Positions 1 to 36,979 of a DNA stretch of 39,837 nt are shown piece after piece. Both the position numbers and the translations under genes were made by a program. This DNA is from a bacterium (GTDB lineage: Bacteria > Bdellovibrionota > Bacteriovoracia > Bacteriovoracales > Bacteriovoracaceae), in NCBI GenBank assembly GCA_030425045.1, contig JAUHVL010000031.1:1-39837 (forward strand). Direction: 5' to 3'. The notes under the pieces are model-generated. The model was not told the origin of the DNA and made no database searches. It saw nothing but the letters and a program-made list of their open reading frames with translations. Within the stretch, counting starts at the first letter, position 1; every line of letters begins with the position of its first letter.

Positions 1-1821
1 TGTTGGAAGTGGAATACTGCACATTGGGGAGTCTGGGGAGAAAGAAACATCAGTACCGCCAGTGGCAGAAGTGACAGCACCTTTTATAAGACAGGCTTTG
101 GGAGCAAGCGACCAAGCAAGAAAGTTCGGTTGGTACTTATCACTTATTCCAGTAGACCAGTGTTCGGGAATATGTTCGCTCATCCCATCAAAGCAAAGCT
201 TTGGCATTCTAGTTCCACCACAAGGCAACATGTTGAATGGAATTTGTGCGAATGGGACTGAGATTGTCCTAGCGTGATAAGATTGAGTGTCCTCGTCATT
301 TTCCATTCCAAAAGGAGGTAATGCCGAGGCTCCTGCTAGTTGTACTGCGGCCCCAGGTAGTGCCGTAAAATGAGAGCTTCCGGCCTTAGGAGTAACTTCT
401 ATAAATGTTTGAGGAACATAATAGCGAAAATGAACGCAAGGTCTAGGAATAGGCCAGCCACACATACTTAATGAGTACCGAAAATTAAGGCAGGAGTTGA
501 ACTCAGGAGCTTTTACAACTGAGCATACATTTGGAAAGGCAAAAGCTAACGTGGGGGAAAGCGTTAGTAGTACGCCTGCTGCCGTTGTTCCAAGCCTTGA
601 AAATCTGTTAAATAGTCCCGAAAGTGAGAATAGTGAATTATTTGGCTTTAACTTCTTTAAAACCTCCTTGTGTTTTGTACTTCTTTTCTTTAAGAAGTGT
701 GGTTTTAAGTACATTTTGTAGAACTTTGTTTCTACGCCATCGTAAACCTGAGCAAAAGATTCAAAAGATTTTAACTTTGAAAACTCTTTTCCTGTGACTA
801 GGTATTCTTTTTGTTGGCTCGTGCTTATAGATTCATTAATATTTGCTCCTTTTGTGTCGAATCCACCAAGCAAAAAGTTTCTAGTGGTCTTTTGGGAGTT
901 TTCAGAAACGCTACGGCTTGTTTTTTCTTTTTCTTCTTGCCCCATAAGCTCTTTGAAATTTCTGATAGTCTCAATGTCTGAAGAGTGGCAAGCGATCCTT
1001 GTTCTAAAGTTTTGAATCAATTCCTTTGCAGCTTTTTCATTTCCAATAGCATTATGAATTGAATTTATACTTTGCGATGCAGCTAAGAAGAAAAAATTTG
1101 CTTCTCTACCTTTTGCACATATCTTGTCATCACCGATAGAACCACCATAACCAACAGAAACAAGGTCTTGATACTCGTCTGCGATTAGGGCAGCTAAAGT
1201 ATCTCTTTTTCTTTCTGGGTCTTTTAAGCGATTCAAAACAGATCGTTCATAGTGAAGCTTAATAAAAGTTCCCATTGAACGTGCTAAAGCTTCATTTTTT
1301 AGGTTGAACAAAATAATCTTTCCACTATCAACAAGCTCATCCATTGACTTAATCGTTAATTTTTCAAAAGTTGGGCAGAATAGCCTTGCTGCATTGTAGT
1401 CTTGAAACTGGTTCAAGAATGTTGTGGCAGTGACAAGAACACCAGATTTAAACTTATCTTCAAACTGTTGATATTCTTGAAAATACCTAATGGCGCAATT
1501 TATATTATAAACCTCCTCTTCATCAAAGTTGTGAGGATTGTCTTCATCATGTGCAATGGCATCCTCTAAATTATCAATTATTTCTGTGCTGTCGGCTTTT
1601 AACATTGTTTCGTAGCAATCAATTAGAGTGAAGTAATCAAGAATAGCGGCACAGTAAACGACTATGTTCTTTGTAAGGTTAAAGGCTGAGTCTTCCCAAA
1701 TGGGTGATTCCTTTGCTTTTCCTGAAAAGTTCTTAGCTGCGGCTCGTATCATACTTGTTACTTCAATGTAGTTTGAGTTTTTTAGTGGATTCTCCACATA
1801 TACTGGATTAAACGTGTGCAT
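1..1821 (-). CDS. Type IV coupling protein, C-terminal half, fused to TraU-like exported domain (partial)
   Basis: The frame is open from an ATG at 1821 to the window edge (607 codons, no stop), so the gene is incomplete. Residues 1-390 are the second half of a TraG/TraD/VirD4-type coupling ATPase. A Walker B-like segment LIADEYQD lies near residues 212-219 and an ASQSINSI segment near 248-255, but there is no Walker A, which sits in the preceding gene (1808-2650). The ATG has a good ribosome site (AGGAG, 7 bases upstream) and overlaps the upstream gene by 14 bases. After about residue 390 the protein becomes a signal-peptide-like stretch (about 403-428, ending in TLAFA) and then a Cys-rich domain (Cys near 433, 443, 454, 462) that resembles TraU-type exported conjugation proteins; that assignment is tentative. 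Coupling proteins recruit the DNA-relaxase complex to the secretion channel. A T4CP-exported-domain fusion is unusual. Confidence 0.72.
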   Translation of the reverse strand, partial: MHTFNPVYVENPLKNSNYIEVTSMIRAAAKNFSGKAKESPIWEDSAFNLTKNIVVYCAAILDYFTLIDCYETMLKADSTEIIDNLEDAIAHDEDNPHNFDEEEVYNINCAIRYFQEYQQFEDKFKSGVLVTATTFLNQFQDYNAARLFCPTFEKLTIKSMDELVDSGKIILFNLKNEALARSMGTFIKLHYERSVLNRLKDPERKRDTLAALIADEYQDLVSVGYGGSIGDDKICAKGREANFFFLAASQSINSIHNAIGNEKAAKELIQNFRTRIACHSSDIETIRNFKELMGQEEKEKTSRSVSENSQKTTRNFLLGGFDTKGANINESISTSQQKEYLVTGKEFSKLKSFESFAQVYDGVETKFYKMYLKPHFLKKRSTKHKEVLKKLKPNNSLFSLSGLFNRFSRLGTTAAGVLLTLSPTLAFAFPNVCSVVKAPEFNSCLNFRYSLSMCGWPIPRPCVHFRYYVPQTFIEVTPKAGSSHFTALPGAAVQLAGASALPPFGMENDEDTQSYHARTISVPFAQIPFNMLPCGGTRMPKLCFDGMSEHIPEHWSTGISDKYQPNFLAWSLAPKACLIKGAVTSATGGTDVSFSPDSPMCSIPLPT

Positions 1822-2650
1822 TTACATCTCCTAAAAATATGCACCTATCTGACAAACCTCTTTTATCTAGGATTTTCACTACATTTTTTATAAAGCTACC
1901 TTTTGGGTCTAAAATGAGAGCTGTTGGTACTTGTTTGAAATTTTTAAATAGTTGGTCAACATAGGTTAAAATTGTTCCCTGGGTTTTTCCTGTTCCAATG
2001 GAGCCAGTTACCAAAATGTTTCCATTAAGTGCTTTTTGTGGGATCACAACCCATTTTGGATTTTGAGCATCTTCAAAATTGCTCTTTTCTTCGCCAACTG
2101 AACCTAGCGTAAGGTGGCCCTTAACAGTTGTCTTAAGCGGCAAACCTGCGCTTAAATTCAATAATCTTTTGATTTTTAAAATCAAAGTCAATACACCATA
2201 AAGTGCAATACTTCCTAAAATTGAAGTTGAGTAAATAAATGTGTCGATAAGCAGACCATAATATTCTGCTGAAATCAGTTTGCTTATGCTTATACTATTT
2301 TGTATCGCAAACTCTCTGAGTCCTTCTGAAGAAAAATAGACGACAACACCTGATGTCACTAGCTTGCCAATAATTTCCTTGAGAGGGACATGACCTTTCT
2401 TAAGGCTTCTTAAGCGGCTACCTTGCTTTTTATACCCAATAGTTCTTTCGAGGATCATTGTAATTATAAGAACATCAAAAGTAATTGATACTGCTAAGAT
2501 CACGATAAAGAGCTTATTGGTTTCCAATGCAGACAAGATATATCTCCAATTCAGGGAGATAAACTGGTAATTTTGTAAGCCAAGAAAAAGAACGGCTACT
2601 AATCCCAAAATCCCTAAAGCTAATGTTGGTGAAATGTCATCATTTTTCAT
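1808..2650 (-). CDS. Type IV coupling protein (TraD/VirD4-like), N-terminal half
   Basis: This 280-residue protein has hydrophobic segments near 10-33, 46-67 and 133-160. A Walker A motif GSIGTGKT lies at 216-223 and the T4CP-typical LILDPKGSF follows at 246-253. It ends at a TAA just where the family continues towards Walker B, and the missing part follows in the +1 frame (ATG at 1821). It is thus a split coupling ATPase: either a true two-subunit form with coupled translation, a recoding site at GTT-TAA, or a frameshift. It would sit in the inner membrane and power substrate delivery to the conjugation channel. It overlaps the upstream 55-residue gene by 11 bases, so the operon is translationally coupled. 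The fold assignment is firm; its functional state is not. Confidence 0.82.
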   Translation of the reverse strand: MKNDDISPTLALGILGLVAVLFLGLQNYQFISLNWRYILSALETNKLFIVILAVSITFDVLIITMILERTIGYKKQGSRLRSLKKGHVPLKEIIGKLVTSGVVVYFSSEGLREFAIQNSISISKLISAEYYGLLIDTFIYSTSILGSIALYGVLTLILKIKRLLNLSAGLPLKTTVKGHLTLGSVGEEKSNFEDAQNPKWVVIPQKALNGNILVTGSIGTGKTQGTILTYVDQLFKNFKQVPTALILDPKGSFIKNVVKILDKRGLSDRCIFLGDVNAHV

Positions 2651-2807
2651 TTTTCTTACCTGATTCCTTTTTTGTCAGTTTTTTAAGGTCTAGTACATTG
2701 CTCACAATTTTCTTTGTGATGTTTAGTAGTTTTCTGTTTTTCTTTTTCTCTTTGTCGCTAACAAGCTGAAAAGCCAAAGCGAGATCGTTAGTAAGTGCAG
2801 CATCCAT
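2640..2807 (-). CDS. Small Lys-rich protein, 55 aa, unknown
   Basis: A short frame encodes 55 residues (begins MDAALTNDLALAF, ends KKNEK). It is mostly helical-looking and very basic in its second half. Its ATG shares one base with the stop of the preceding gene (TAATG), and its own stop lies inside the start of the coupling-protein gene. These tight overlaps on both sides in a conjugation operon support it as a real gene. No family is recognised. It may be a small accessory of the coupling protein, which is inference from position only. Confidence 0.6.
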   Translation of the reverse strand: MDAALTNDLALAFQLVSDKEKKKNRKLLNITKKIVSNVLDLKKLTKKESGKKNEK

Positions 2808-3013
2808 TAAAATCCTCCCTGTTGTAGAATTGGTTTCTTGTCAAAGCAGCGTCCTCTAAGGTTGAACTCAACCTTTTTGCAAGTTCCTTGGTAAAGGGTG
2901 ATGATTAAGTCTCCGTAATCAAGATCAATACCTGTTTTTTCCTTTACATTTTCTTTTAAGCGAGCAACGGCTTCTTCGATTATTACTTCGTCCTTAATCT
3001 TTTCGAGTTTCAT
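2807..3013 (-). CDS. Small conjugation-operon protein, 68 aa, unknown
   Basis: The product starts MKLEKIKDEVIIEEA and has 68 residues. A GTG nine bases upstream is possible, but AAGGTGG lies 5 bases before the ATG at 3013, so I chose the ATG. The N-terminal half looks like a charged amphipathic helix and the rest is mixed, with two Cys. It overlaps the next gene by one base (TAATG). No family is recognised. Its position in the operon suggests a role in transfer. Confidence 0.6.
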   Translation of the reverse strand: MKLEKIKDEVIIEEAVARLKENVKEKTGIDLDYGDLIITLYQGTCKKVEFNLRGRCFDKKPILQQGGF

Positions 3014-3025
3014 TGCGTCCACCTT

Positions 3026-3169
3026 TTAAGAAGTCGCGCTTACTAAGCGCGACTCAATCCTTTCAATGATTGCAACTAATTCGTGATTGGATACAAGTTC
3101 TTCCACTGACAAAGACCCGTACCATTCACGAAAGAGTCTTTTAATTTTTTCTAAATATTCCTTTGTCAT
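3026..3169 (-). CDS. Small protein, 47 aa, unknown
   Basis: The frame starts at ATG 3169 (MTKEYLEKIKRLF) behind AGGAGG with a 7-base gap. An ATG six bases further upstream lies too close to that site. It is predicted helical and charged, with no signal peptide. Its last codons contain a perfect inverted repeat (3032-3054). Spacing and ribosome site place it in the conjugation operon. Function unknown. Confidence 0.5.
   Translation of the reverse strand: MTKEYLEKIKRLFREWYGSLSVEELVSNHELVAIIERIESRLVSATS
3032..3054. repeat. Perfect 11-bp inverted repeat
   Basis: The arms AGTCGCGCTTA and TAAGCGCGACT flank a single base, inside the 3' end of the 47-residue gene. The GC-rich dyad in AT-rich DNA could fold in mRNA and tune expression or stability between small operon genes. 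No clear T-run follows on either strand, so it is not a convincing terminator. Confidence 0.7.
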
Positions 3170-3185
3170 GCTCATTCCTCCTTAA

Positions 3186-3473
3186 TTATTTACAAAATCC
3201 GTCTTCTTTTAGTTTTGCCAGTAGTTGTGCTGAGTAGGCTGCATTATGAGTCTGAGTAAGAGTGACCTCATTTACTTTTTGACCTGGGTACTGAATACCG
3301 TAGCCTTTACCCATCAAAATGCAGCGAGGTTCTACCTGTTCGCATTGAACATGGTCTGCGCCCATCTCTACGAGCTGGTCTACTGACATAGTGCCTTCTT
3401 CGTGTAAGTTAACCCCAAATGCGAAAGCTTGAGTGGTAGTAAGTAAAAGTGTTCCCAATAATAGTTTTTTCAT
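3186..3473 (-). CDS. Small exported protein, 95 aa
   Basis: The first ~20 residues (MKKLLLGTLLLTTTQAFAFG) form a textbook Sec signal peptide with cleavage likely after AFA. The mature part has about 75 residues with three Cys (near C44, C51 and the C-terminal CK), so it is probably a periplasmic protein with a disulfide. The start has AAAGGAG 7 bases upstream. It lies in the conjugation operon behind the sigma-54 promoter at 3687-3702. No family recognised; a periplasmic accessory of the transfer apparatus is a guess from context. Confidence 0.7.
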   Translation of the reverse strand: MKKLLLGTLLLTTTQAFAFGVNLHEEGTMSVDQLVEMGADHVQCEQVEPRCILMGKGYGIQYPGQKVNEVTLTQTHNAAYSAQLLAKLKEDGFCK

Positions 3474-3490
3474 TCGTTTTCTCCTTTAAG

Positions 3491-3649
3491 TTAATAATGA
3501 ATTGGAAATAGCATTTGTCCTTTTAAGAGCATTTCATGTCGATGTTGCTCTATGAGTTTATAGTTGATTTGTTTTTGTTCTCCTCCCTTAGATTTAAAAA
3601 TGTTTTCAAGTTTTTCTTTGATTCTTTTAAAAATTGCTTTTAGTTTCAT
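3491..3649 (-). CDS. First gene of the conjugation operon, basic 52-aa protein
   Basis: The 52-residue product begins MKLKAIFKRIKEKLENIFK, an amphipathic basic helix, and ends MLFPIHY. AAGGAG lies 6 bases upstream of ATG 3649. It is the first reading frame downstream of the sigma-54 promoter at 3687-3702, giving a leader of about 25 bases. No homology is recognised. It could be a small peptide acting on membrane or nucleic acid, or a leader-type gene. Confidence 0.55.
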   Translation of the reverse strand: MKLKAIFKRIKEKLENIFKSKGGEQKQINYKLIEQHRHEMLLKGQMLFPIHY

Positions 3650-3686
3650 TTGTGTCTCCTTCATAAACTTCTCACAGTTCTATAAA

Positions 3687-3702
3687 GCCAAACCTGTGCC
3701 AA
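3687..3702 (-). promoter_or_regulatory. Sigma-54 (-24/-12) promoter for the conjugation operon
   Basis: On the minus strand TTGGCAC (3702-3696) is followed after 5 bases by TGGC (3690-3687). The GG and GC are spaced as in the RpoN consensus TGGCAC-N5-TTGC, with one mismatch. The predicted start is near 3675, just ahead of the ribosome site of the 52-residue gene. Operator-like dyads lie upstream at 3787-3900, as expected for an NtrC-type activator. Confidence 0.72.
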
Positions 3703-3786
3703 AACGGGTGTCTTTTATAAGTCGTTGTTTCTATTGGTTTTTGATTCTTTTGAGCGGTGTTGATTTCAAAATCTTGAAATAGAAAT

Positions 3787-3900
3787 CTACAAGATATTGA
3801 AAGAGAATATTTAGAACGTAATTGTTTTAAGGAGTTATCGTCTTACAAGATTTTGTAGCAGTTTTTAATATCTTGTAGAATTGTCTTTAATAAATTGTAG
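3787..3900. promoter_or_regulatory. Cluster of CTACAA-N4-TTGTAG activator sites upstream of the conjugation operon
   Basis: Four copies of one dyad occur: CTACAA-GATA-TTGaaa at 3787-3802 (right arm partial), TTACAA-GATT-TTGTAG at 3843-3858, a right half TATC-TTGTAG at 3869-3878, and CTTTAA-TAAA-TTGTAG at 3885-3900. The last three are spaced 20 and 22 bp, about two helical turns. The nearest centre is about 120 bp upstream of the predicted sigma-54 start. The same dyad recurs at 10252-10458. They are the likely binding sites of the response regulator encoded at 8702-10105. The rest of 3903-4005 is AT-rich and I see nothing else in it. Confidence 0.7.
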
Positions 3901-4005
3901 ATTAAAGATGAATTGAATTAGATAAATAAAAAAATAGTTAGATGGAAAATGTACGAATGTTCAAAGGGACAATTGCCTTAGACTGTTGAATATTTTTTGT
4001 GGTGT

Positions 4006-5847
4006 TTAATTCAAAATTTGAACAGGGATTCTTTCAAGGATTGATTTTGGAACTATTGGTAGCTTGCTTTTGCAACATTCATTATGCAGCCAATTGCTAT
4101 TACCACTTGAAGTTACCAGGATAGACTTAGACTCTATAGATCGCTGTGTGATGAACTGAAGTCCAGTGTACTCTTTATGTCTCAGGTCATTATCAATGAG
4201 CAATATATAGTCTGTGTCGCTATTTTCCAGTTTATTAATATAGAGAGTAGCATCATCCAAGTTGTTAAAGTGAGTAGTTTTAATGGAGCTTTCAACCAGC
4301 TTTTCTTGAACTAGCTTTCTTTCCCAGACTTTATGAACAATCGGATCATCGTCAACAATGACAATCTCCATTCCTGGGGCAAAGTATAGTGTTGTAGGAT
4401 AAAGGTAATCAACATCAGATATGGGAAGTTTAATTAATACCTTTGAACCAACATTTTCTTTGGAGCTTATAGTGAGTTCCCCATTCCAATTTTCAATATC
4501 CTCTATAGCCGCAGCCAGTCCAATGCCAGTGCCATTTATCTTATTGAAAGTTGCGCCACGTTTTCCTATCTTTGGAAGTATGTCTTCTGGAATGCCACAG
4601 CCGTTGTCTTTGATAGATATTTCCAAAAACTCATTGTTTAAAGAGATTGTGGTTTCAATGTATCCGTCTTCCATAACTGCTTCTATAGCATTTTTATACA
4701 AGTTTAAGAGATTACGCTTGAATTTAACGGGGGCAATCTCAGCGAAAGCATCAAACGAGTCCTTATCAGTTATGGTCTTGAACTTAACCCTTTTTGACTG
4801 GGATATTTTTGATAATTTTATTTCTCCTACAATTTGATAGATAAGTGAAGCTATATGGCATTTCCTTGATTTGTCTGTCTTTTCGAGTCCGTCCAATTCA
4901 CTTGTCTCGTTTCCAGCCGCTATGTTAATTTCAAGTTCAGTTAATGAACCAATCTTAGGAATGTCCTCGACAGTATCACTAATACGCTCAAATACAGTTT
5001 TTAAAATATCAATCTGTTTAGTATTATCTGATATTGAGTCTAAGGCAGATTCTCCTATATCAAGAGAAGCAATCACATCATGCTTTACTCTTGAAGCGAC
5101 TTTCGCTATCTGTGCCTTAGAAATTGCTTTACGAGCGATATTCTCATTTTCTTTGCTTTTTAATATATAGTTAATAAGTATTTCATTGAATGAGTTTATT
5201 TCATCTAACTTCATCCAATTGTTGTTATGTTTAAAGAAGTGCTCACTTCCTACATTTTCTTTTAAAAAAACAGAGTAGTCAGTAAAAGGAGCTGTGAGAC
5301 TATTGGCCAGTCTTTGTATTCTTGAATACAGATAAAGAGAGATTAAAGTGAACAGCAGTGAGATTAATACTGTAAACCAAAAAATTGTATAAATTGGAAT
5401 TTGGTAGCCAACAAATAGTTTCCCGACGACTTGTTTCCCATAAATGACGGGCTTTTTAACCACAATATGTGGCAGACCATTGTTCCAATAAAATCTACTA
5501 TCTTTAATATTCTTAAGCTCAGGGTATATATCATAAGAATGAGCCTCTACATGCACATTATTGCGAGAGGTTGTAACCCATACATCCTTAAAATTGCCTG
5601 ATTCAACTAATGTTTTAATGATTTGAGATGGCAGAAATTCACCACCTAGTCCCATCGGCTGGCTTAAGCTTCTTGTAACAACATTTGTTGTCTGCATAAG
5701 TTGGCCGCGATAATAATATGTGCCTACCAATGCTCCAAGTAAGAAAACACTTATAACCCCAACAATAAAAATCTTAAATGAAAGCGACCTGGCTCTCATT
5801 TTCGCGTAAGATTTAATTGATTGAGGCTTTTTAGATTTCATTGGCAT
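4006..5847 (-). CDS. Hybrid sensor histidine kinase with C-terminal receiver
   Basis: The 613-residue protein has a TM helix near 23-45, a periplasmic domain of about 105 residues (46-151), TM2 near 152-174, then a coiled region and kinase core. The likely phosphorylated His is H256 (RVKHDVIAS). The N box NLYKNAIEA is at 382-390, and G boxes DNGCG (414-418) and GTGIGLAAA (439-447) follow. A receiver domain follows from about 493, with acidic VDDD, phosphoacceptor D552 (LLIDND) and Lys K601. The start overlaps the preceding gene by 17 bases; M3 (5841) is better spaced from GAGGTG and may be the true start. Last gene of the cassette, it probably senses a signal via the periplasmic peptide-binding protein (6678-8198), as LuxP works with LuxQ, and phosphorylates the regulator at 8702-10105. 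The partner assignments are inference. Confidence 0.9.
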   Translation of the reverse strand: MPMKSKKPQSIKSYAKMRARSLSFKIFIVGVISVFLLGALVGTYYYRGQLMQTTNVVTRSLSQPMGLGGEFLPSQIIKTLVESGNFKDVWVTTSRNNVHVEAHSYDIYPELKNIKDSRFYWNNGLPHIVVKKPVIYGKQVVGKLFVGYQIPIYTIFWFTVLISLLFTLISLYLYSRIQRLANSLTAPFTDYSVFLKENVGSEHFFKHNNNWMKLDEINSFNEILINYILKSKENENIARKAISKAQIAKVASRVKHDVIASLDIGESALDSISDNTKQIDILKTVFERISDTVEDIPKIGSLTELEINIAAGNETSELDGLEKTDKSRKCHIASLIYQIVGEIKLSKISQSKRVKFKTITDKDSFDAFAEIAPVKFKRNLLNLYKNAIEAVMEDGYIETTISLNNEFLEISIKDNGCGIPEDILPKIGKRGATFNKINGTGIGLAAAIEDIENWNGELTISSKENVGSKVLIKLPISDVDYLYPTTLYFAPGMEIVIVDDDPIVHKVWERKLVQEKLVESSIKTTHFNNLDDATLYINKLENSDTDYILLIDNDLRHKEYTGLQFITQRSIESKSILVTSSGNSNWLHNECCKSKLPIVPKSILERIPVQILN

Positions 5848-6670
5848 AGCACCTCAGATCATCTAAAAGTATTTTTCCAAATTCTGTGAACGTGACATTT
5901 CCATAACTATCGAGTGACTTTTTAAAATCACTAGAAAGCACATTAAGATTATCTGCTAAATATTCGCTTTCATCACTTTCAGGCAACTGACTGATAAATC
6001 GCACCATAAATGCAAGTGCAATTGTGGCATGAAAGGATTGTATTGCTGGCCTATCTGTTTTTCTAACAAATGAATGAACGGGCGTACTGAGTCCGTTTTC
6101 AATAATTGGGTCTGCCGTTTGATAAACATATAGTGCTTGATGGCCTGTTTCGTGTGCTATATTGATTGCTAGTTGATTTACTGAGTTTAATTCTAAAAAG
6201 GGAACACTTAAGAAGATTGCGCCTTTGGCGAGATGGCTGCTGAATCCTATGCCTATATCTTGAAAGTTTCCTTTTGTTGTTTTCATTGGGACAATATTCA
6301 TAACTAACTCATCGAATAACAAGGAAATATCATTGTTTGATGACATAACCTTATCCGAAGCAGCTTTAATTAGATCAAGTTCAGTTTCTTCCATTGTTGA
6401 AAATGAGACAAAATTATTCTTGTCTTCAGGAGGATAATACTGAGACTCAATAGTATTCAGAGCTTCATTAGAAGTTACAATCTTTTCATTTAGCTCATAA
6501 ATATTCTTAAGCCGAAGATGGTTACTGTAATTACTCATCCAGGGTGAGTAATTTTTGAATGAACACTTGTTTGTTGAATTGATTTGGTACAAAGCTTTAT
6601 GTCTAAAAGAGTCATTAATCTCTTTTAACCTTTTAAGCCCTGAATTTCCAAAAAACCAAGAGTCTTTCAT
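5831..6670 (-). CDS. HExxH-motif peptide-modification-type protein
   Basis: The 279-residue protein has no signal peptide, so it should be cytoplasmic. It carries HETGH near 173-177 followed by a segment with PVHSF, an Arg, RPAIQSFH and a hydrophobic helix. That layout (HExxH, then R..RP....H in a long helix) matches my memory of the HEXXH-motif putative peptide-modification family, part of which was shown to be alpha-ketoglutarate-dependent peptide beta-hydroxylases, better than it matches a secreted protease. It sits between the peptide-binding protein gene (7-base gap) and the kinase gene (overlap of 17), next to a small exported protein. I infer that it modifies the N-terminal or core part of a signal peptide before export. 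A plain zinc peptidase that trims the peptide is the main alternative. Confidence 0.62.
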   Translation of the reverse strand: MKDSWFFGNSGLKRLKEINDSFRHKALYQINSTNKCSFKNYSPWMSNYSNHLRLKNIYELNEKIVTSNEALNTIESQYYPPEDKNNFVSFSTMEETELDLIKAASDKVMSSNNDISLLFDELVMNIVPMKTTKGNFQDIGIGFSSHLAKGAIFLSVPFLELNSVNQLAINIAHETGHQALYVYQTADPIIENGLSTPVHSFVRKTDRPAIQSFHATIALAFMVRFISQLPESDESEYLADNLNVLSSDFKKSLDSYGNVTFTEFGKILLDDLRCYANEI

Positions 6671-6677
6671 TTTCTAC

Positions 6678-8198
6678 CTATTTAAGCTTTGTTCTCTCAA
6701 CAAAGAAGGTTAAACCACCATCTTGTAAGCCAGTGTCTTTCACACTGTTTGGGTTGATTGAAACTAATAATTTTTTCTCAAACAAAGGAACTACCCATGT
6801 TTCATCGTGTAGATAGCTAGATAAGTTTTTAATTGCCATTACTCGTTGATCTAGTGTTGTAGTGTGCTGTGCTTTAATAAACAAATCTTCATATATTTTG
6901 TCATTTAATGGGAAATGTGGTTTTAAAGGTGAGTTCTTGCCCCTCAATAAACCGAACAATATAATTGGGTCTGCAACATCAGCACCTAATGAAGCCAGTC
7001 GAAATAATGTTGTCTTGTCACTTTCTGGAAACTTTTTGTCGTTAGATTCAAAGAGCTTTACTTTCAGTCCTGCTTTCTGAAGCTGAGACTCAAGCCTTTG
7101 TGCGTATTTACCATACTTTGGGTCACTGATTTTACCGTTAAAAACAGGTATCTTGTAGGTTTTTGACAGGTCAAGGCCTTTAACTTTCTTCAATAGTGAA
7201 TTAGCGACGGCAATATCTTTTTCTTTCTTATGTTTAATTCTGCCCCAAAAGTGTTTTGCTAGAAACTCATCAGCAGGACTATATATTTCAACGTCTTTTG
7301 CTAACTCATTCCTATCGACGGCAAGATCAATTGCTTTTCTGAAGTTTATATTACTAGCGATTGAGCTGTTAAAATTAAAATAGATACCCGTAAGACTTGC
7401 TGATCTTTTTGATGATACTACTTTTTTATTTTCTCCATGCGAAGACAGTTCAATGTCTATCGGCTCAGTGGTCTTTTTAAAATAAAAAGCGATTTCATTC
7501 GGTGATTCACCTGATTTCTTTACTCTCGTTATAACAAGTTTTCCAGCTTTAGAGTTAAATTCTGAGACTTTGTAAGCTCCAGCTCCAACTGGATACTCAT
7601 TCCATGTCTCATAGTTGCTGCCAAAAGCTTCTATTGGAACTACAGAAAAGTATGCTCTGGCCAATGAGTGCAAAAAAGAAGGGTTTGGTTCATTCAATTT
7701 GACACTGATAGATTGCTCATCAATCACCTTAATTCCGCTGACTTGACCACTTACAAATTTTTTCTTTCCCTTGATAGCATCAATCCCTTTTATGTTATTA
7801 AGAAAGGCCAGGAAAAAGGACGGACGAGAGGAGTAAAACCCTCTTAACAAAGAAAACTCTAAGTCTTTTGACGTTACCTTTCTGCCATTATGGAAACTTA
7901 AGTTTGGTTTCAGCTTTAAAATATATGCACTACTTTCAAAATCCCAACTAAATGATTCCAGAAGACCAGGCTCCAGGTCATAGGAGTTTGATGTATAGAT
8001 TAGCTGTCCTAAGATTGGGGTTATTGTTGCATACATAGTGTCAACAGGAGCATCTTTGCTAAATGGCAACTCTTTTCCTAAAGGCAAAAGAACATTCATT
8101 CTATCTTTAGCACTGGTTCTCGCTATTGCCTTTTTATCTAATGTAGTTTGCGCTACTAACATGATTGCTCCTAATGCAATATATAGAAAAAATCTCAT
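6678..8198 (-). CDS. Orphan periplasmic oligopeptide-binding protein (SBP_bac_5, OppA/DppA-like)
   Basis: The 506-residue protein has an N-terminal signal segment (MRFFLYIALGAIMLVAQ). It shows the typical order of extracellular solute-binding family 5: an LEPGLLESFSWD region, then FHNGRKVTSKDLEFSL, then PVGAGAYKV, then FRKAIDLAVDRNEL. The family binds peptides or nickel in the periplasm for ABC importers or hands them to receptors. No ABC permease or ATPase gene lies nearby; instead it sits 6 bases after a small exported protein gene and in operon with a sensor kinase. I therefore infer a ligand-presenting sensor role, comparable to PrgZ in enterococcal pheromone plasmids or LuxP. Peptide as the ligand comes from the family, not from the sequence alone. 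Confidence 0.88.
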   Translation of the reverse strand: MRFFLYIALGAIMLVAQTTLDKKAIARTSAKDRMNVLLPLGKELPFSKDAPVDTMYATITPILGQLIYTSNSYDLEPGLLESFSWDFESSAYILKLKPNLSFHNGRKVTSKDLEFSLLRGFYSSRPSFFLAFLNNIKGIDAIKGKKKFVSGQVSGIKVIDEQSISVKLNEPNPSFLHSLARAYFSVVPIEAFGSNYETWNEYPVGAGAYKVSEFNSKAGKLVITRVKKSGESPNEIAFYFKKTTEPIDIELSSHGENKKVVSSKRSASLTGIYFNFNSSIASNINFRKAIDLAVDRNELAKDVEIYSPADEFLAKHFWGRIKHKKEKDIAVANSLLKKVKGLDLSKTYKIPVFNGKISDPKYGKYAQRLESQLQKAGLKVKLFESNDKKFPESDKTTLFRLASLGADVADPIILFGLLRGKNSPLKPHFPLNDKIYEDLFIKAQHTTTLDQRVMAIKNLSSYLHDETWVVPLFEKKLLVSINPNSVKDTGLQDGGLTFFVERTKLK

Positions 8199-8204
8199 AA
8201 ACAG

Positions 8205-8687
8205 TTACCTTATGAAGCTGTGTCTTGAGTACATAAGCTGATCTTCTCTCAATACAGGTGTTGAGTTTTCTTTTAACCTTTTTAAGATTTCATCATTACT
8301 CTTAATCGAGGTAATAGTTCCTAATCTCGAAAAAGCATGGTTCTTTGCCAGAGTATTTACAAAAACATCTTTAAGAACAAATCTGTCTGAGTCTTCATCG
8401 AATTCTACCTCATCAGAATCATGTAGTTTCTCTATAAGAGCATTAGGCAAATGGTCTGGTGAAATATAAACTTGTTGTATTTCATTATCGAAATTTAATG
8501 CTCCCATTTGAGAAAACATTTCTAATACACGAATAGTATCAACATTTACTTGAAGACTTTCTGCAATTGCCCTTGGGTCATCAGTATTAATGTTTACTAC
8601 TGGCTCATGATCTCCACCGAGTGCGTCTACTGCTGGGATTAATCCCAAAGCAGCTAGTAGTACGATTTTATTTCTTTTTAATTTCAT
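8205..8687 (-). CDS. Small exported protein, candidate signal-peptide precursor
   Basis: The 160-residue product starts with a Sec signal peptide (MKLKRNKIVLLAALGLIPAV, likely cleaved after VDA). The mature part is acidic and ends in a short basic tail (LMYSRHSFIR). No Cys is seen and no family is recognised. It lies 14 bases after the response regulator gene and 6 bases before the peptide-binding protein gene, with GGAG ahead of its ATG. Its place between regulator, peptide receptor, peptide-modification enzyme and kinase makes it the best candidate in the cassette for a pheromone precursor or a periplasmic inhibitor of the signal. This is inference; the sequence alone shows only an exported protein. 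Confidence 0.7.
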   Translation of the reverse strand: MKLKRNKIVLLAALGLIPAVDALGGDHEPVVNINTDDPRAIAESLQVNVDTIRVLEMFSQMGALNFDNEIQQVYISPDHLPNALIEKLHDSDEVEFDEDSDRFVLKDVFVNTLAKNHAFSRLGTITSIKSNDEILKRLKENSTPVLREDQLMYSRHSFIR

Positions 8688-8701
8688 ATCTCCATCCTCC
8701 C

Positions 8702-10105
8702 TTACTGGTTTTGATTTACTGTAAGTCCTAGACTTTTACGTTTAAAGATATACGTCGTATAAGGTAATCCTGTTAAACGTGCAGCTTCAGCTCTTTTTCC
8801 GTTGGCAAGTACCATCGCTTTTTCTAAGTAAAGCCGTTCAAGTCTATTCCTATGATTCTCTACAAAATCCTCATAGCTCATAAAATCTTCCATTTTACTG
8901 ATCTCATTTATTACACCCTCTAGGTCGTCACTATTTACCAAGCTAGTAAAATGTGAACGGTCAATGATTGAATCAGCAAGAGTATAAGCTTTTCTGATTT
9001 TGTTATTTAATTCCCTAATATTTCCAGGCCATGCAAAAGACTCCAAGAGCTTGATTGCATCGTCAGTAATATGTTTTTCTAACCCTGTTTCATTGTTCTT
9101 TTCATCAACAATGAACTTTGCAATTGGCTCTATGTCTTCAGGTCTTTCTGACAATGTTGGAATTTGTATTGGAAGTATATTTAGCCTGAAATACAAGTCT
9201 TCACGAAAATTTCCTTTTTTTATCTCTTCTGCTAAATTTCTGTTTGTAGCAGCAACTACACGAACATCAATTTTAGTTGGTTTTGTACTTCCCACAGGGT
9301 AGACCTCTTTTTCCTGTAAGACTCTTAATAGCTTTACTTGAGAATCAAGAGGCATTTCACCAATTTCATCAAGGAATATTGTTCCACCATGAGCAGCAAC
9401 AAATTTTCCTGTCTGATTGTTTGAAGCCCCTGTAAAAGAGCCTTTTAAGTGTCCAAACAGTTCACTTTCAACTAAATCTTTTGATATTGCTCCACAGTTT
9501 ACTGCGATAAAGGCTCCGTTTCTGTCTGAGTTATTGTGGATTGATCTAGCAACTTGTTCTTTTCCAACACCTGATTGACCAGTAATTAAAACGCTTTCAC
9601 CAGCCTGGGCGTACTTGCTTACTTCACTTGCTACTTTTGCTAACCCAGTTGAATGACCTCTAAGGTTTAGAGTTTTTTTGATCCATTCATTATTAGCTTC
9701 CTTTTCGTCTTTAGTAAGCTTTCCTCTTTTTACCTTTAATGAAGCGATCTCAGCTAAAAGAAGTATTCTTTCCTTGCTCTTACTTTTTAAGTAAATATGG
9801 TCAGCACCAGCTCTATTACATAGTGAAGATTCTTCGGCAGATAAAGAAGACGAAAGGATGACCGTATGAATAGATGGGTCAATTTTTTTAATTGATCTAA
9901 CTACTTCATTGCCTTTGATTGGCATATCGTAATCGACAATAGCCATTTTAAATGGAGAGCCGCTATTCTTTGCTTCATCAATCGCACGAATCGCTTTTTC
10001 AGGATTTGCAAAAGTTGATAGTGGAATTTGTTTTTCATTGAATAGAGCTTTAGTTCCAGTTAAGAACATTTCATCATCATCAATGGCTATAACTCTTGGC
10101 TTCAT
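8702..10105 (-). CDS. NtrC-family sigma-54 response regulator
   Basis: The 467-residue protein has three domains. The receiver (1-120) has DDDE, phosphoacceptor D58 (IVDYDMP) and a Lys in IYLKSK. The AAA+ domain (about 150-380) has Walker A GQSGVGKE, a GSFTGA loop (variant of GAFTGA, which contacts sigma-54), Walker B GGTIFLDEIGEM and the arginine region FREDLYFRL. A Fis-type HTH is at the C-terminus (GKRAEAARLTGLPYTTYIFK). It therefore activates RpoN-dependent promoters from upstream sites after phosphorylation. Its own gene lies 35 bases after a predicted sigma-54 start, so it should be autoregulated. The likely targets are the three sigma-54 promoters at 3687, 10152 and 10547 through the CTACAA-N4-TTGTAG dyads. 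The kinase at 4006-5847 is the natural partner. Confidence 0.95.
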   Translation of the reverse strand: MKPRVIAIDDDEMFLTGTKALFNEKQIPLSTFANPEKAIRAIDEAKNSGSPFKMAIVDYDMPIKGNEVVRSIKKIDPSIHTVILSSSLSAEESSLCNRAGADHIYLKSKSKERILLLAEIASLKVKRGKLTKDEKEANNEWIKKTLNLRGHSTGLAKVASEVSKYAQAGESVLITGQSGVGKEQVARSIHNNSDRNGAFIAVNCGAISKDLVESELFGHLKGSFTGASNNQTGKFVAAHGGTIFLDEIGEMPLDSQVKLLRVLQEKEVYPVGSTKPTKIDVRVVAATNRNLAEEIKKGNFREDLYFRLNILPIQIPTLSERPEDIEPIAKFIVDEKNNETGLEKHITDDAIKLLESFAWPGNIRELNNKIRKAYTLADSIIDRSHFTSLVNSDDLEGVINEISKMEDFMSYEDFVENHRNRLERLYLEKAMVLANGKRAEAARLTGLPYTTYIFKRKSLGLTVNQNQ

Positions 10106-10151
10106 TCAAGCTTCCCCTTTGTTAGAGTAGCGGTACTCTCAGGCCTCTATC

Positions 10152-10167
10152 GCAAGGTGTGTGCCAA
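10152..10167 (-). promoter_or_regulatory. Sigma-54 promoter for the signalling cassette
   Basis: The minus strand reads TTGGCAC (10167-10161), 5 bases, TTGC (10155-10152), a full match to TGGCAC-N5-TTGC. The predicted start is near 10140, giving a 35-base leader for the response regulator gene at 10105. The first dyad (10252-10267) is centred about 120 bp upstream. Confidence 0.85.
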
Positions 10168-10251
10168 TTGAACAACACCCTGAAATTTAAGGCTTTTTAA
10201 TTTGGGGGCTTAGTCACAGCTACAAAAGGAGCCTAAGCTTAGTTCAGTTTT

Positions 10252-10458
10252 CTACAAGATATTGTAGCCCTCCAAAGTCACTTTCCTTGTGCAAGCCAGT
10301 AAGTACCTGATAGAACTGGCTAATTCCTTATATCTGACCCTCTGCGATATTTCTACAATTTTTTGTAGACGGAAAATCAGGATTATGTCTACACATTAAT
10401 TAAGCATACGAAATTGCTCAGAAAATATGTTATTTTTGTTTATTACAAAATCTTGTAG
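10252..10458. promoter_or_regulatory. Three CTACAA-N4-TTGTAG dyads between divergent sigma-54 promoters
   Basis: Dyads lie at 10252-10267 (spacer GATA, both arms perfect), 10353-10368 (spacer TTTT, perfect) and 10443-10458 (TTACAA-AATC-TTGTAG, one mismatch). A half site lies at 10220-10225. Their centres sit about -120, -220 and -310 for the leftward promoter and about -122, -212 and -313 for the rightward one, so one array serves both. This is the typical layout of enhancer sites for an NtrC-type activator. The remaining bases of the 10106-10599 gap show no reading frame I would support. Confidence 0.8.
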
Positions 10459-10546
10459 ATCGCTTATAGAACTTCATTATTTTGAACAAATTACACGTTC
10501 AAATGGTGCATTTTGACCTCTTATTCTAACTTTTGAGTGAAAACAT

Positions 10547-10561
10547 TGGCCTGGTTCTTGC
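10547..10561 (+). promoter_or_regulatory. Sigma-54 promoter for the NTF2-like gene
   Basis: TGGCCT (10547-10552), 5 bases, TTGC (10558-10561) keeps the invariant GG and GC at RpoN spacing. The predicted start is near 10573, giving a 27-base leader that includes AAGGAG ahead of ATG 10600. It faces away from the promoter at 10152 and shares its upstream dyads. Confidence 0.75.
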
Positions 10562-10599
10562 CTAATGAAGTGACTAATTGATCTTAAGGAGATTAACTT

Positions 10600-11055
10600 A
10601 TGAAACGAAGAGTAATCATAGCAGCTTTTATTTGTACGACATTTCTAGTTGGAATCAATAATACTGTAGCTATGACTTGCGTTGATTTACTAAAGGAAAT
10701 TATGCCTATGCCAAAAGACATTGTAAAAAAACAACTAGAGGCTTTTAACAATCAAGATATTGAGGGTTGTTTAAAGTATTTTGCTGAAGATTTAAAAATA
10801 ATCGTTCTTCCTGAAGAAACTGTAATGGCATCGTCAAAGGAAGAGATTAGACAGCACATGAAGGATCAAATTGATTCTGGAGATTTTCTACCTGCGAAGC
10901 TAATTGATATTAGTTCAAACGGAAAATTTGTAACCACAACTGAGGTAAAGGACGACGGAAAAATAAAATCAACCATCACATTTATCTATTACGTTGAAGA
11001 TGGTTTAATTAAAAAAATGTGGGGCGCACCCTTTAGGGAAGATTCTACTAACTAG
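10600..11055 (+). CDS. Exported NTF2/SnoaL-like protein, sigma-54 controlled
   Basis: The 151-residue product has a signal peptide (about 1-24, ending in TVAM) and a mature domain that reads like the SnoaL/NTF2 fold: VKKQLEAFNNQDIEGCLKYF, then EEIRQHMKD, then a beta-rich end. Such domains are small-molecule or protein-binding cones, sometimes enzymes; no catalytic residues can be assigned. It is the only rightward gene of the divergent sigma-54 array, so it should be switched on together with the conjugation and signalling genes. A role at the cell envelope during transfer, such as exclusion or signal handling, is inference. AAGGAG lies 8 bases upstream of the ATG. Confidence 0.72.
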   Translation: MKRRVIIAAFICTTFLVGINNTVAMTCVDLLKEIMPMPKDIVKKQLEAFNNQDIEGCLKYFAEDLKIIVLPEETVMASSKEEIRQHMKDQIDSGDFLPAKLIDISSNGKFVTTTEVKDDGKIKSTITFIYYVEDGLIKKMWGAPFREDSTN

Positions 11056-11057
11056 CA

Positions 11058-11219
11058 TTATGGGCCAGTTCTTACCGCGAGAAAACCTAATTTAATTGCA
11101 ATCAAAATTAAAGCGACTATCCAGCCTTTTTTCGTAACATACCGTAGTCGGTAATCTTTCATTTGAAGTTTTAAATTAAGCTCAAATACGAGTTTGTTAT
11201 CATTTTCTTTTGTCTCCAT
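11058..11219 (-). CDS. Small single-TM membrane protein, 53 aa
   Basis: From ATG 11219 (METKENDNKL) the product has a charged N-terminal part and one hydrophobic helix near residues 33-48 (GWIVALILIAIKLGF). A longer version with an earlier start is possible, but a purine-rich AAAGGGGG lies 4-5 bases before this ATG. That ribosome site is one arm of a strong hairpin (11223-11260), so translation may be blocked until the RNA unfolds. No family recognised. It converges on the NTF2-like gene with a 2-base gap. Confidence 0.45.
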   Translation of the reverse strand: METKENDNKLVFELNLKLQMKDYRLRYVTKKGWIVALILIAIKLGFLAVRTGP

Positions 11220-11222
11220 AAG

Positions 11223-11260
11223 ACCCCCTTTCACCCAAGCCGAAGGCCAATGAAGGGGGT
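11223..11260. repeat. Hairpin over the ribosome site of the 53-aa gene
   Basis: The arms ACCCCCTTTCA (11223-11233) and TGAAGGGGGT (11251-11260) pair with one bulged base, and an inner GCC-GAA-GGC stem adds stability. On the minus strand the G-rich arm is the ribosome site of the gene at 11058-11219. No T-run follows, so it is unlikely to be a terminator. Confidence 0.55.
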
Positions 11261-11517
11261 TGTTGGACAAAAGAGCTACTATAAGCCCATTTGAAGTTTT
11301 ATGTGAAATTCAAAACAAGAATATTTTATCTGCTGTTCTTATTATTACGGCAAGACCTGTTTTAGATGCAATTAATACAGCTATAGGAGGTCGTGAGGTC
11401 GGACATGTTTATGATGGAGTTCGTAAGTTTCCAATTGTAACTCGACTTTCAGAAGATGATGGAGTTGATATTTACAATGTTAGATATAATATTACAAAAT
11501 TTGTTGCAAAGGAATAG
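11260..11517 (+). pseudogene. Remnant of a CzcA/CusA-type RND permease
   Basis: Residues about 38-67 of this frame (AINTAIGGREVGHVYDGVRK and the following FPIVTRLSED) closely resemble an internal stretch of the intact CzcA-type protein in this window (AMGGEEVGFIYEGVRKFPVI near 23030-23095). The full permease has about 1060 residues; here only about 50 remain, without start or neighbours. It is a relic of a second RND efflux operon just upstream of the CDF gene, and marks a deletion or recombination scar at the border between the regulatory and metal regions. Confidence 0.75.
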
Positions 11518-11519
11518 GT

Positions 11520-12398
11520 TTGGCACACGATCATTCTCATAATCATGGCAGCAAAAATATTTTGGTAGCATTTTTCTTAAATGCTACCTTTACTGTCATC
11601 GAATTGATCGGTGGTTATTTTACAAATAGTGTTGCAATATATTCTGATGCTCTATACGACTTAGGAGACAGTATTGCGTTGTTATTTTCTTATTTTGCTG
11701 AAAAATACAGTCATAAATCTCCAGATGCAAAATTCACTTTTGGGTATAGACGCTTTTCAGTCTTATCAGCATTGATAAATGGCTTAATACTGCTAACAGG
11801 TAGTATCTTTGTGATTTACGAGGCCATTCTTCGTATTGCAAACCCAGAAGAAGTAAAGCCTGATGGGATGCTACTTCTCGCTATCCTCGGTATTGTTGTA
11901 AATTCTATCGCTGCCTTTAGGTTATCAAAAGACAAAGGCATTAATCAAAAAATGGTCATGTACCATTTGTTTGAGGATATTTTAGGTTGGGTGGCAGTAT
12001 TAATTGTAAGTATTATTTTAATGTTTAAGCCTTGGTTTATGCTTGACTCAATACTCTCGATTCTTATTTCTTTAGTTATTCTCCGCGGCGTTTATAAAAA
12101 TATTTTAAAAATATCTGCAATTTTTCTTCAGCAATTTCCAGACGACTTGAAACTCAGAAATATAAAAGAAGAGCTATTCAAATTCGATCTCATAGATGAT
12201 GTTCACGCTTTTAAAGGTTGGTCGTTGGACTCTGAAACCTATTACCTTCGATTTCATGTGAGCATCCCTGAAACTACGACAATTCGAGAAATTGATTCTT
12301 TAAGACTTGAAGTGAAAAAGATTCTTGAAAAGTATAATATAGCCTTTTCAAGCATTGAGTTCGAGTCCTCAATCAATAACTGCATTGAAAACAACTAA
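11520..12398 (+). CDS. CDF-family cation efflux protein
   Basis: The 292-residue protein starts at TTG 11520 with a His-rich tip (MAHDHSHNHG) and has about six TM helices. The metal-site motifs are DALYD in TM2 and HLFED in TM5, the DxxxD/HxxxD pair of cation diffusion facilitators that export Zn, Cd, Co or Fe against protons. A soluble C-terminal domain of about 90 residues follows. It lies directly after the RND remnant and before the DtxR-type regulator, so it probably belonged to a larger metal operon. The exact metal cannot be read from the sequence. Confidence 0.88.
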   Translation: MAHDHSHNHGSKNILVAFFLNATFTVIELIGGYFTNSVAIYSDALYDLGDSIALLFSYFAEKYSHKSPDAKFTFGYRRFSVLSALINGLILLTGSIFVIYEAILRIANPEEVKPDGMLLLAILGIVVNSIAAFRLSKDKGINQKMVMYHLFEDILGWVAVLIVSIILMFKPWFMLDSILSILISLVILRGVYKNILKISAIFLQQFPDDLKLRNIKEELFKFDLIDDVHAFKGWSLDSETYYLRFHVSIPETTTIREIDSLRLEVKKILEKYNIAFSSIEFESSINNCIENN

Positions 12399-36903: not shown

Positions 36904-36979
36904 TGGTGGACCGAACAGGGATCGAACCTGCGACCTCAACGCTGCCAGCGTCGCGCTCTCCCAACTGAGCTACCGGCCC
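36904..36979 (-). tRNA. tRNA-Ala (anticodon GGC)
   Basis: The minus strand gives a full 76-base cloverleaf with encoded CCA (36906-36904). The anticodon loop is CTGGCAG, so the anticodon is GGC (Ala). The acceptor stem pairs GGGCCGG with TCGGTCC and has the G3:U70 wobble that marks alanine tRNAs. The T-loop is TTCGATC. Its 3' end points into the island, the usual attachment site for tyrosine integrases. A small dyad ACCTCA/TGAGGT lies just downstream (36877-36895). The duplicated tRNA end expected at the far side of the island is not in this window. Confidence 0.96.

Follow-up and report, generated by a model that had tools for sequence, protein, structure and literature searches.

A candidate peptide-signalling cassette built around an aKG-HExxH-type enzyme on a putative integrative conjugative element of Bdellovibrionota

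Closest described systems

In Vibrio, the LuxP-LuxQ-LuxO system transmits the small-molecule signal AI-2 from a periplasmic binding protein and a hybrid kinase to a sigma54 regulator of the NtrC type. The Enterococcus plasmids pCF10 and pAD1 present another arrangement, in which conjugation is controlled by a peptide, and a family-5 solute-binding protein (SBP) encoded by the element binds this peptide. The cassette described here was found in a window of 39,837 nt, the whole stretch of DNA that was analysed, from a bacterium of the family Bacteriovoracaceae. It shares with the Vibrio system a periplasmic binding protein, a hybrid kinase and a sigma54 regulator, and with the enterococcal plasmids a family-5 SBP coupled to conjugation on the element. 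However, its binding protein is of the peptide type (SBP_bac_5) and the signal would be gene-encoded, unlike AI-2, while the enterococcal pheromones are unmodified peptides that depend on cytoplasmic import and a cytoplasmic receptor, and involve neither a kinase nor an oxygenase. In addition, the window regulator scored 261.7 bits with the LuxO equivalog model and did not reach its cut-off of 800.

In the ComQXPA quorum sensing system of Bacillus, one operon encodes the modifying enzyme together with the pre-peptide, a histidine kinase and a response regulator (PMC4008528). A modifying enzyme, a candidate pre-peptide, a kinase and a regulator likewise stand together in the window operon, whereas ComQ is an isoprenyl transferase and its system has no SBP, in contrast to the aKG-HExxH-type enzyme, periplasmic receptor and sigma54 regulator found here. 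Judged by these comparisons, the window module is not a member of ComQXPA, LuxPQ-LuxO or the enterococcal pheromone plasmids, and it resembles their logic.

Regarding the enzyme itself, ChlB/ChlH, PflC/PosC, BpmH and PesO (TIGR04267/IPR026337) have the same profile, fold and combination of HExxH, Arg and His. For members already characterised, the residues oxidised in peptides are His, Asp, Phe, Gln and Pro (PMC13060819); two members cleave backbones (PMC12636437; PMC13060819), PflC hydrolyses peptides when the leader is absent (PMC12636437), and the known products come from RiPP clusters (PMC12636437; PMC13060819). In view of these activities, peptide oxidation would be the default expectation for the window enzyme. 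Short ORFs for precursors next to the enzyme in the RiPP systems have a counterpart in the candidate precursor ORFs of the sister cassettes of the window. The known enzymes, however, are encoded in clusters with radical SAM, MNIO and other tailoring enzymes, whereas here the neighbours are an SBP, a kinase, a sigma54 regulator and conjugation genes. In the literature searched, which covered few subscription journals, the aKG-HExxH enzymes described all tailor natural-product peptides, and neither a modified-peptide pheromone controlling Gram-negative conjugation nor a density control of conjugation in Bdellovibrionota is described.

The HExxH enzyme and its conserved gene neighbourhood

The enzyme gene (5831-6670, minus strand) encodes a protein of 279 aa, in which HETGH spans residues 173-177 and RPAIQSFH residues 207-214. 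Hydropathy reveals neither a transmembrane nor a signal segment, indicating a cytosolic protein. Translation and hydropathy thus agree with the motif layout (HETGH, Arg, RPAIQSFH) and the lack of a signal peptide from which the preliminary description had assigned this ORF to the HEXXH peptide-modification family. This assignment is now supported by profile and fold. The protein passes the NCBIfam model for the aKG-HExxH peptide beta-hydroxylase domain (TIGR04267) with 41.5 bits at a cut-off of 40, and comparison of PDB sequences with a profile built from nine relatives retrieved ChlH (8s5f; E 8.9e-18) and another HExxH entry (22nu; 1.5e-4). The AlphaFold model (pLDDT 90.5) superimposes on the HExxH domain of ChlB with Z 24.1 and rmsd 3.0 over 263 residues, followed by SjiH with Z 19.9, and the next unrelated fold reached only 5.9. 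The closest profiles and structures are therefore HExxH oxygenase-family entries and not a zinc peptidase only; a Pfam search, peptidase families included, gave no match at E 1. All 59 aligned relatives keep residues H173, E174, H177, R207, P208 and H214. Within this set, the Arg and the C-terminal His align with those of ChlH, from which R207 and H214 would have ligand roles. Because the HETGH motif is invariant in all 59 relatives and the order of the five genes of the window cassette recurs in other genera, it is not a chance match.

These five genes form a minus-strand operon in the order sigma54 regulator, 160-aa protein, SBP, enzyme and hybrid kinase, where the enzyme and kinase genes share 17 overlapping bases and the remaining intergenic gaps measure 6-14 bases. 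The SBP (6678-8198; PF00496, 2.2e-36) and the kinase (4006-5847; PF02518, 6.3e-17) flank the enzyme gene, as noticed in the preliminary description. The sigma54-dependent response regulator (8702-10105) combines a receiver (PF00072, 1.5e-9), an AAA+ domain (PF00158, 1.5e-67) and a weak Fis HTH. The hybrid kinase has two transmembrane segments by hydropathy (24-42 and 155-173), a periplasmic region and the HATPase domain matched by PF02518, and alignment reveals a receiver-like domain at the C-terminus. The SBP and the 160-aa protein (8205-8687, minus strand) each have a signal or transmembrane segment by hydropathy. Divergent from the cassette lies a gene for a secreted SnoaL/NTF2-like protein (10600-11055, plus strand; PF12680, 3.6e-6), which is a conserved neighbour in four further loci (L010, L011, L012 and L071).

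A sequence search detected relatives in 8 of 97 genomes, and 132 of 369 Bdellovibrionota genomes encode TIGR04267 members. Among the 59 Bdellovibrionota HExxH loci used for comparison of the module, a family-5 SBP adjoins the enzyme in 40; nearly all of these also have a sensor kinase and, often, a sigma54 regulator. Loci with an SBP cluster on the tree, requiring four changes of state as opposed to 16.4 in shuffles. In these loci, the module is conserved. Matches in the named genome collection were Bdellovibrionota records and one MAG filed as Alphaproteobacteria, where the enzyme is present with neither SBP nor kinase. No relative was found on viral contigs, and plasmids yielded a single distant match, in Pantoea. 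A search of window positions 1-12000 against Rfam returned nothing. Furthermore, a separate long HExxH protein (about 320-500 aa; L096-L102), with neither SBP nor kinase, is common in the family to which the window belongs.

Candidate precursors and their export

A short candidate precursor ORF next to the enzyme is clear in sister cassettes, while the window offers only the 160-aa protein, which lacks the shared core. In five cassettes, free peptides of 26-32 aa are encoded directly upstream of the enzyme, with a common core (e.g., FNLDIHRDPVLGEIRGS), and the motif NLDIxxDxxxxExR describes the core of the free peptides of 24-32 aa. A PSSM was built from these five peptides, chosen by eye, and scanned against 10,417 small ORFs. 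Behind the five, the next ranks were taken by ORFs situated just upstream of enzymes, in L061 (70 aa), in L057 and L076 (24 aa in both) and in L094. The five themselves ranked 4 to 8 when each was left out in turn. In L061, the 70-aa ORF (6753-6965) holds the putative core as a tandem duplicate, upstream of the HExxH gene and with an MFS gene near. A few places below this group, with two unrelated ORFs between, came proteins from L016, L056 and L059. A second group of precursors comprises Sec-signal proteins of about 95 aa with a related C-terminal stretch (e.g., VDISIFDSHQFAQARMDFVRQ); the motif common to these Sec-type precursors could be a folded element instead of a core. In several other cassettes, such as L068, L082, L072 and L015, no precursor was recognised.

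The 160-aa protein has an orthologue in every cassette of the window subtype. Its structure model is of low confidence, and its tail (residues 142-160, ending in REDQLMYSRHSFIR) is disordered, with pLDDT under 50. The NLDI core is absent from it, and profile-profile comparison with the group of about 95 aa revealed no similarity beyond the signal peptide. A single precursor family uniting the two was considered and dropped for this reason. For the same reason, it is the position of the 160-aa protein in the operon that suggests it as the substrate, or precursor, on which the window enzyme would act.

In the free-peptide cassettes, a gene for an MFS transporter is located between the enzyme and kinase genes, or an MFS-like domain is fused to the kinase. 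All seven free-peptide cassettes that include a kinase have such a transporter or domain, and none of the 19 Sec-type cassettes does (Fisher 1.5e-6, with shared ancestry ignored, for a table sorted by hand that covers few lineages). Two of the seven cases (L057 and L076) are fusions of MFS and kinase, which match the cassette transporters with 97.5% in hhalign. An MFS profile gave no credible match to these 1002-aa kinases and Pfam none either, so the fusion rests on the profile-profile comparison. Both kinases (L057 1193-4201; L076 1652-4663) are about 1000 aa long, and their N-terminal half is an MFS-like domain with 11-12 transmembrane segments. The division into free-peptide cassettes with MFS and Sec-signal cassettes is as expected if the peptide must be exported.

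Carrier element, sigma54 sites and the proposed circuit

Beyond the kinase gene, small ORFs of 57, 95, 49, 71 and 55 aa (2640-3664, minus strand), most with orthologues in L011, L012 and L078, head a conjugation operon that continues into a T4SS coupling protein (TraD/VirD4-like; PF12696, 2e-8; PF10412, 3.1e-7), encoded by two overlapping ORFs (1-2650, minus strand) and running off the contig end. The split of the coupling protein recurs in L011 (13436-16481) and L012, with Walker A in one ORF and TraG-D_C in the other, and in the copies seen a ribosome-binding site stands before the start of the second ORF. Another contig of the same genome (C90) supplies the remaining part: aligned with the L011 orthologue of 740 aa, it covers residues 607-738 and the window 3-604. 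There, TraC, a relaxase and an integrase follow. In two genomes (G016 and G298), T4SS, coupling protein, relaxase and integrase are found in the same order in one contiguous stretch, and HTH_17, relaxase and integrase lie beside the T4SS. The MobF relaxase profile (PF08751) gave no match in 11 genomes. A tRNA-Ala(GGC) (36904-36979, minus strand) is the probable insertion end of the element, and G016 has this tRNA at the corresponding side. No exact attachment repeats of 14 bases or more were detected; the search returned a 10-base direct match to the end of the tRNA and a 12-base match near the integrase in the wrong orientation. The gene content (relaxase, T4SS and integrase) and the tRNA-Ala together point to an integrative conjugative element. 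The enzymes of L056 and L059 are identical although they come from two genera, which fits horizontal transfer.

Two further parts of the window resemble cargo of such an element. A CBASS anti-phage locus (28164-32384) includes a capP-type peptidase (28164), a patatin effector (29520), a CD-NTase (30514) and an E2-like protein (31704). Between 11520 and 28000, translations suggest metal-efflux and related genes, namely CDF, CzcA-type RND, ArsR/MerR-type regulators and an FTR1-type permease with cytochrome c.

A perfect sigma54 (-24/-12) promoter, TGGCACACACCTTGC (10152-10166, minus strand), is located 61 bases ahead of the regulator gene, and all seven close relatives have this perfect site before the cassette, at 33-65 bases in six; 0.03 perfect sites per window are expected by chance. 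Two weaker sites are TGGCACAGGTTTGGC (3687-3701, minus strand), before the conjugation operon, with equivalents in L011 (12394), L012 (9863) and L078 (4798), and TGGCCTGGTTCTTGC (10547-10561, plus strand), 53 bases before the SnoaL-like gene, with equivalents in L010 (5407) and L071 (631). Before the SnoaL-like gene, the L071 site is perfect, while those of the window and L010 are weaker. Of the three window sites, these two are thus imperfect. Chance would give roughly one site per window at the threshold that admits them, so they rest on their conserved placement. RpoN is present. TraC lies within 20 kb of 8 of the 18 cassettes on long contigs, as opposed to 0.43 expected (P about 1e-9, with shared ancestry ignored). 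Since about half of these cassettes have no TraC nearby, conjugation is not the sole output.

We somewhat favour the explanation that the cassette is a hydroxylated-peptide pheromone circuit which is carried by the integrative conjugative element and controls its conjugation. For the hydroxylated signal peptide suggested in the preliminary description, strong indirect support comes from the precursor-like ORFs conserved directly upstream of the enzyme in sister cassettes, from the division between free-peptide/MFS and Sec-signal cassettes, and from the sigma54 sites before the cassette and the conjugation operon. The cytosolic Fe/alpha-ketoglutarate HExxH enzyme would oxidise a precursor encoded in the cassette, most likely by beta-hydroxylation; the precursor would be the 160-aa Sec-signal protein in the window, and the 24-32-aa peptide or the Sec-signal protein of about 95 aa in the sister cassettes. 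The oxidised product would be exported via Sec or the dedicated MFS exporter, and the periplasmic family-5 SBP would bind the product or its fragment and present it to the hybrid kinase, which would signal to the sigma54 regulator. This regulator could act on its own operon, in positive feedback, on the SnoaL-like gene and on the T4SS operon, and conjugation would thereby be adjusted to producer density. For the window, we infer the identity of the substrate, its hydroxylation, sensing by SBP and kinase, and the control of transfer. The wider proposal, of an enzymatically hydroxylated and self-encoded Gram-negative pheromone with sensing by SBP and hybrid kinase, sigma54 autoinduction and a conjugation switch, in free-peptide/MFS and Sec versions across Bdellovibrionota, is tentative, and we hold it as possible and somewhat short of probable.

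The most constant partners of the enzyme are the SBP and the kinase, no small precursor was recognised in some cassettes, and SBP-kinase pairs for ordinary metabolites are already known (PMC11113362). Such features would also suit an enzyme that modifies the SBP or the kinase before export or assembly and so tunes a sensor of nutrients or prey peptides, with the small proteins as periplasmic accessories. We consider this unlikely, since it leaves unexplained why short ORFs that share one motif are conserved right next to the enzyme gene, on its upstream side, and why MFS exporters occur solely where the peptide has no signal. The constant presence of a peptide-type SBP and a kinase, together with a putatively autoregulated operon, would fit product sensing, and no additional tailoring enzyme was recognised within the cassettes compared. 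These points render it improbable that a small secreted protein is oxidised or cleaved to a bacteriocin, metal chelator or mating factor while the SBP and kinase sense another cue, although the known aKG-HExxH products do come from RiPP clusters and two members cleave backbones (PMC12636437; PMC13060819). A zincin-type metallopeptidase, processing the precursor or degrading the signal, seems very improbable: HExxH, the zincin-like fold and the hydrolysis of leaderless peptides by PflC of the same family (PMC12636437) speak for it, yet two HExxH oxygenase-family entries are by far the closest structures, the resemblance to zincins is distant, with 5.9 the best score beyond those entries, Arg and the C-terminal His match ChlH, and no Pfam peptidase family matched.

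Returning to the hydroxylated-peptide circuit, a dedicated signalling role for an aKG-HExxH enzyme would, if true, be new. The precursors of 24 aa make the chemistry open to direct test with synthetic peptides. If confirmed, the circuit, carried by a relative of predatory bacteria, would add a new type of chemical signal exchanged among Gram-negative bacteria.
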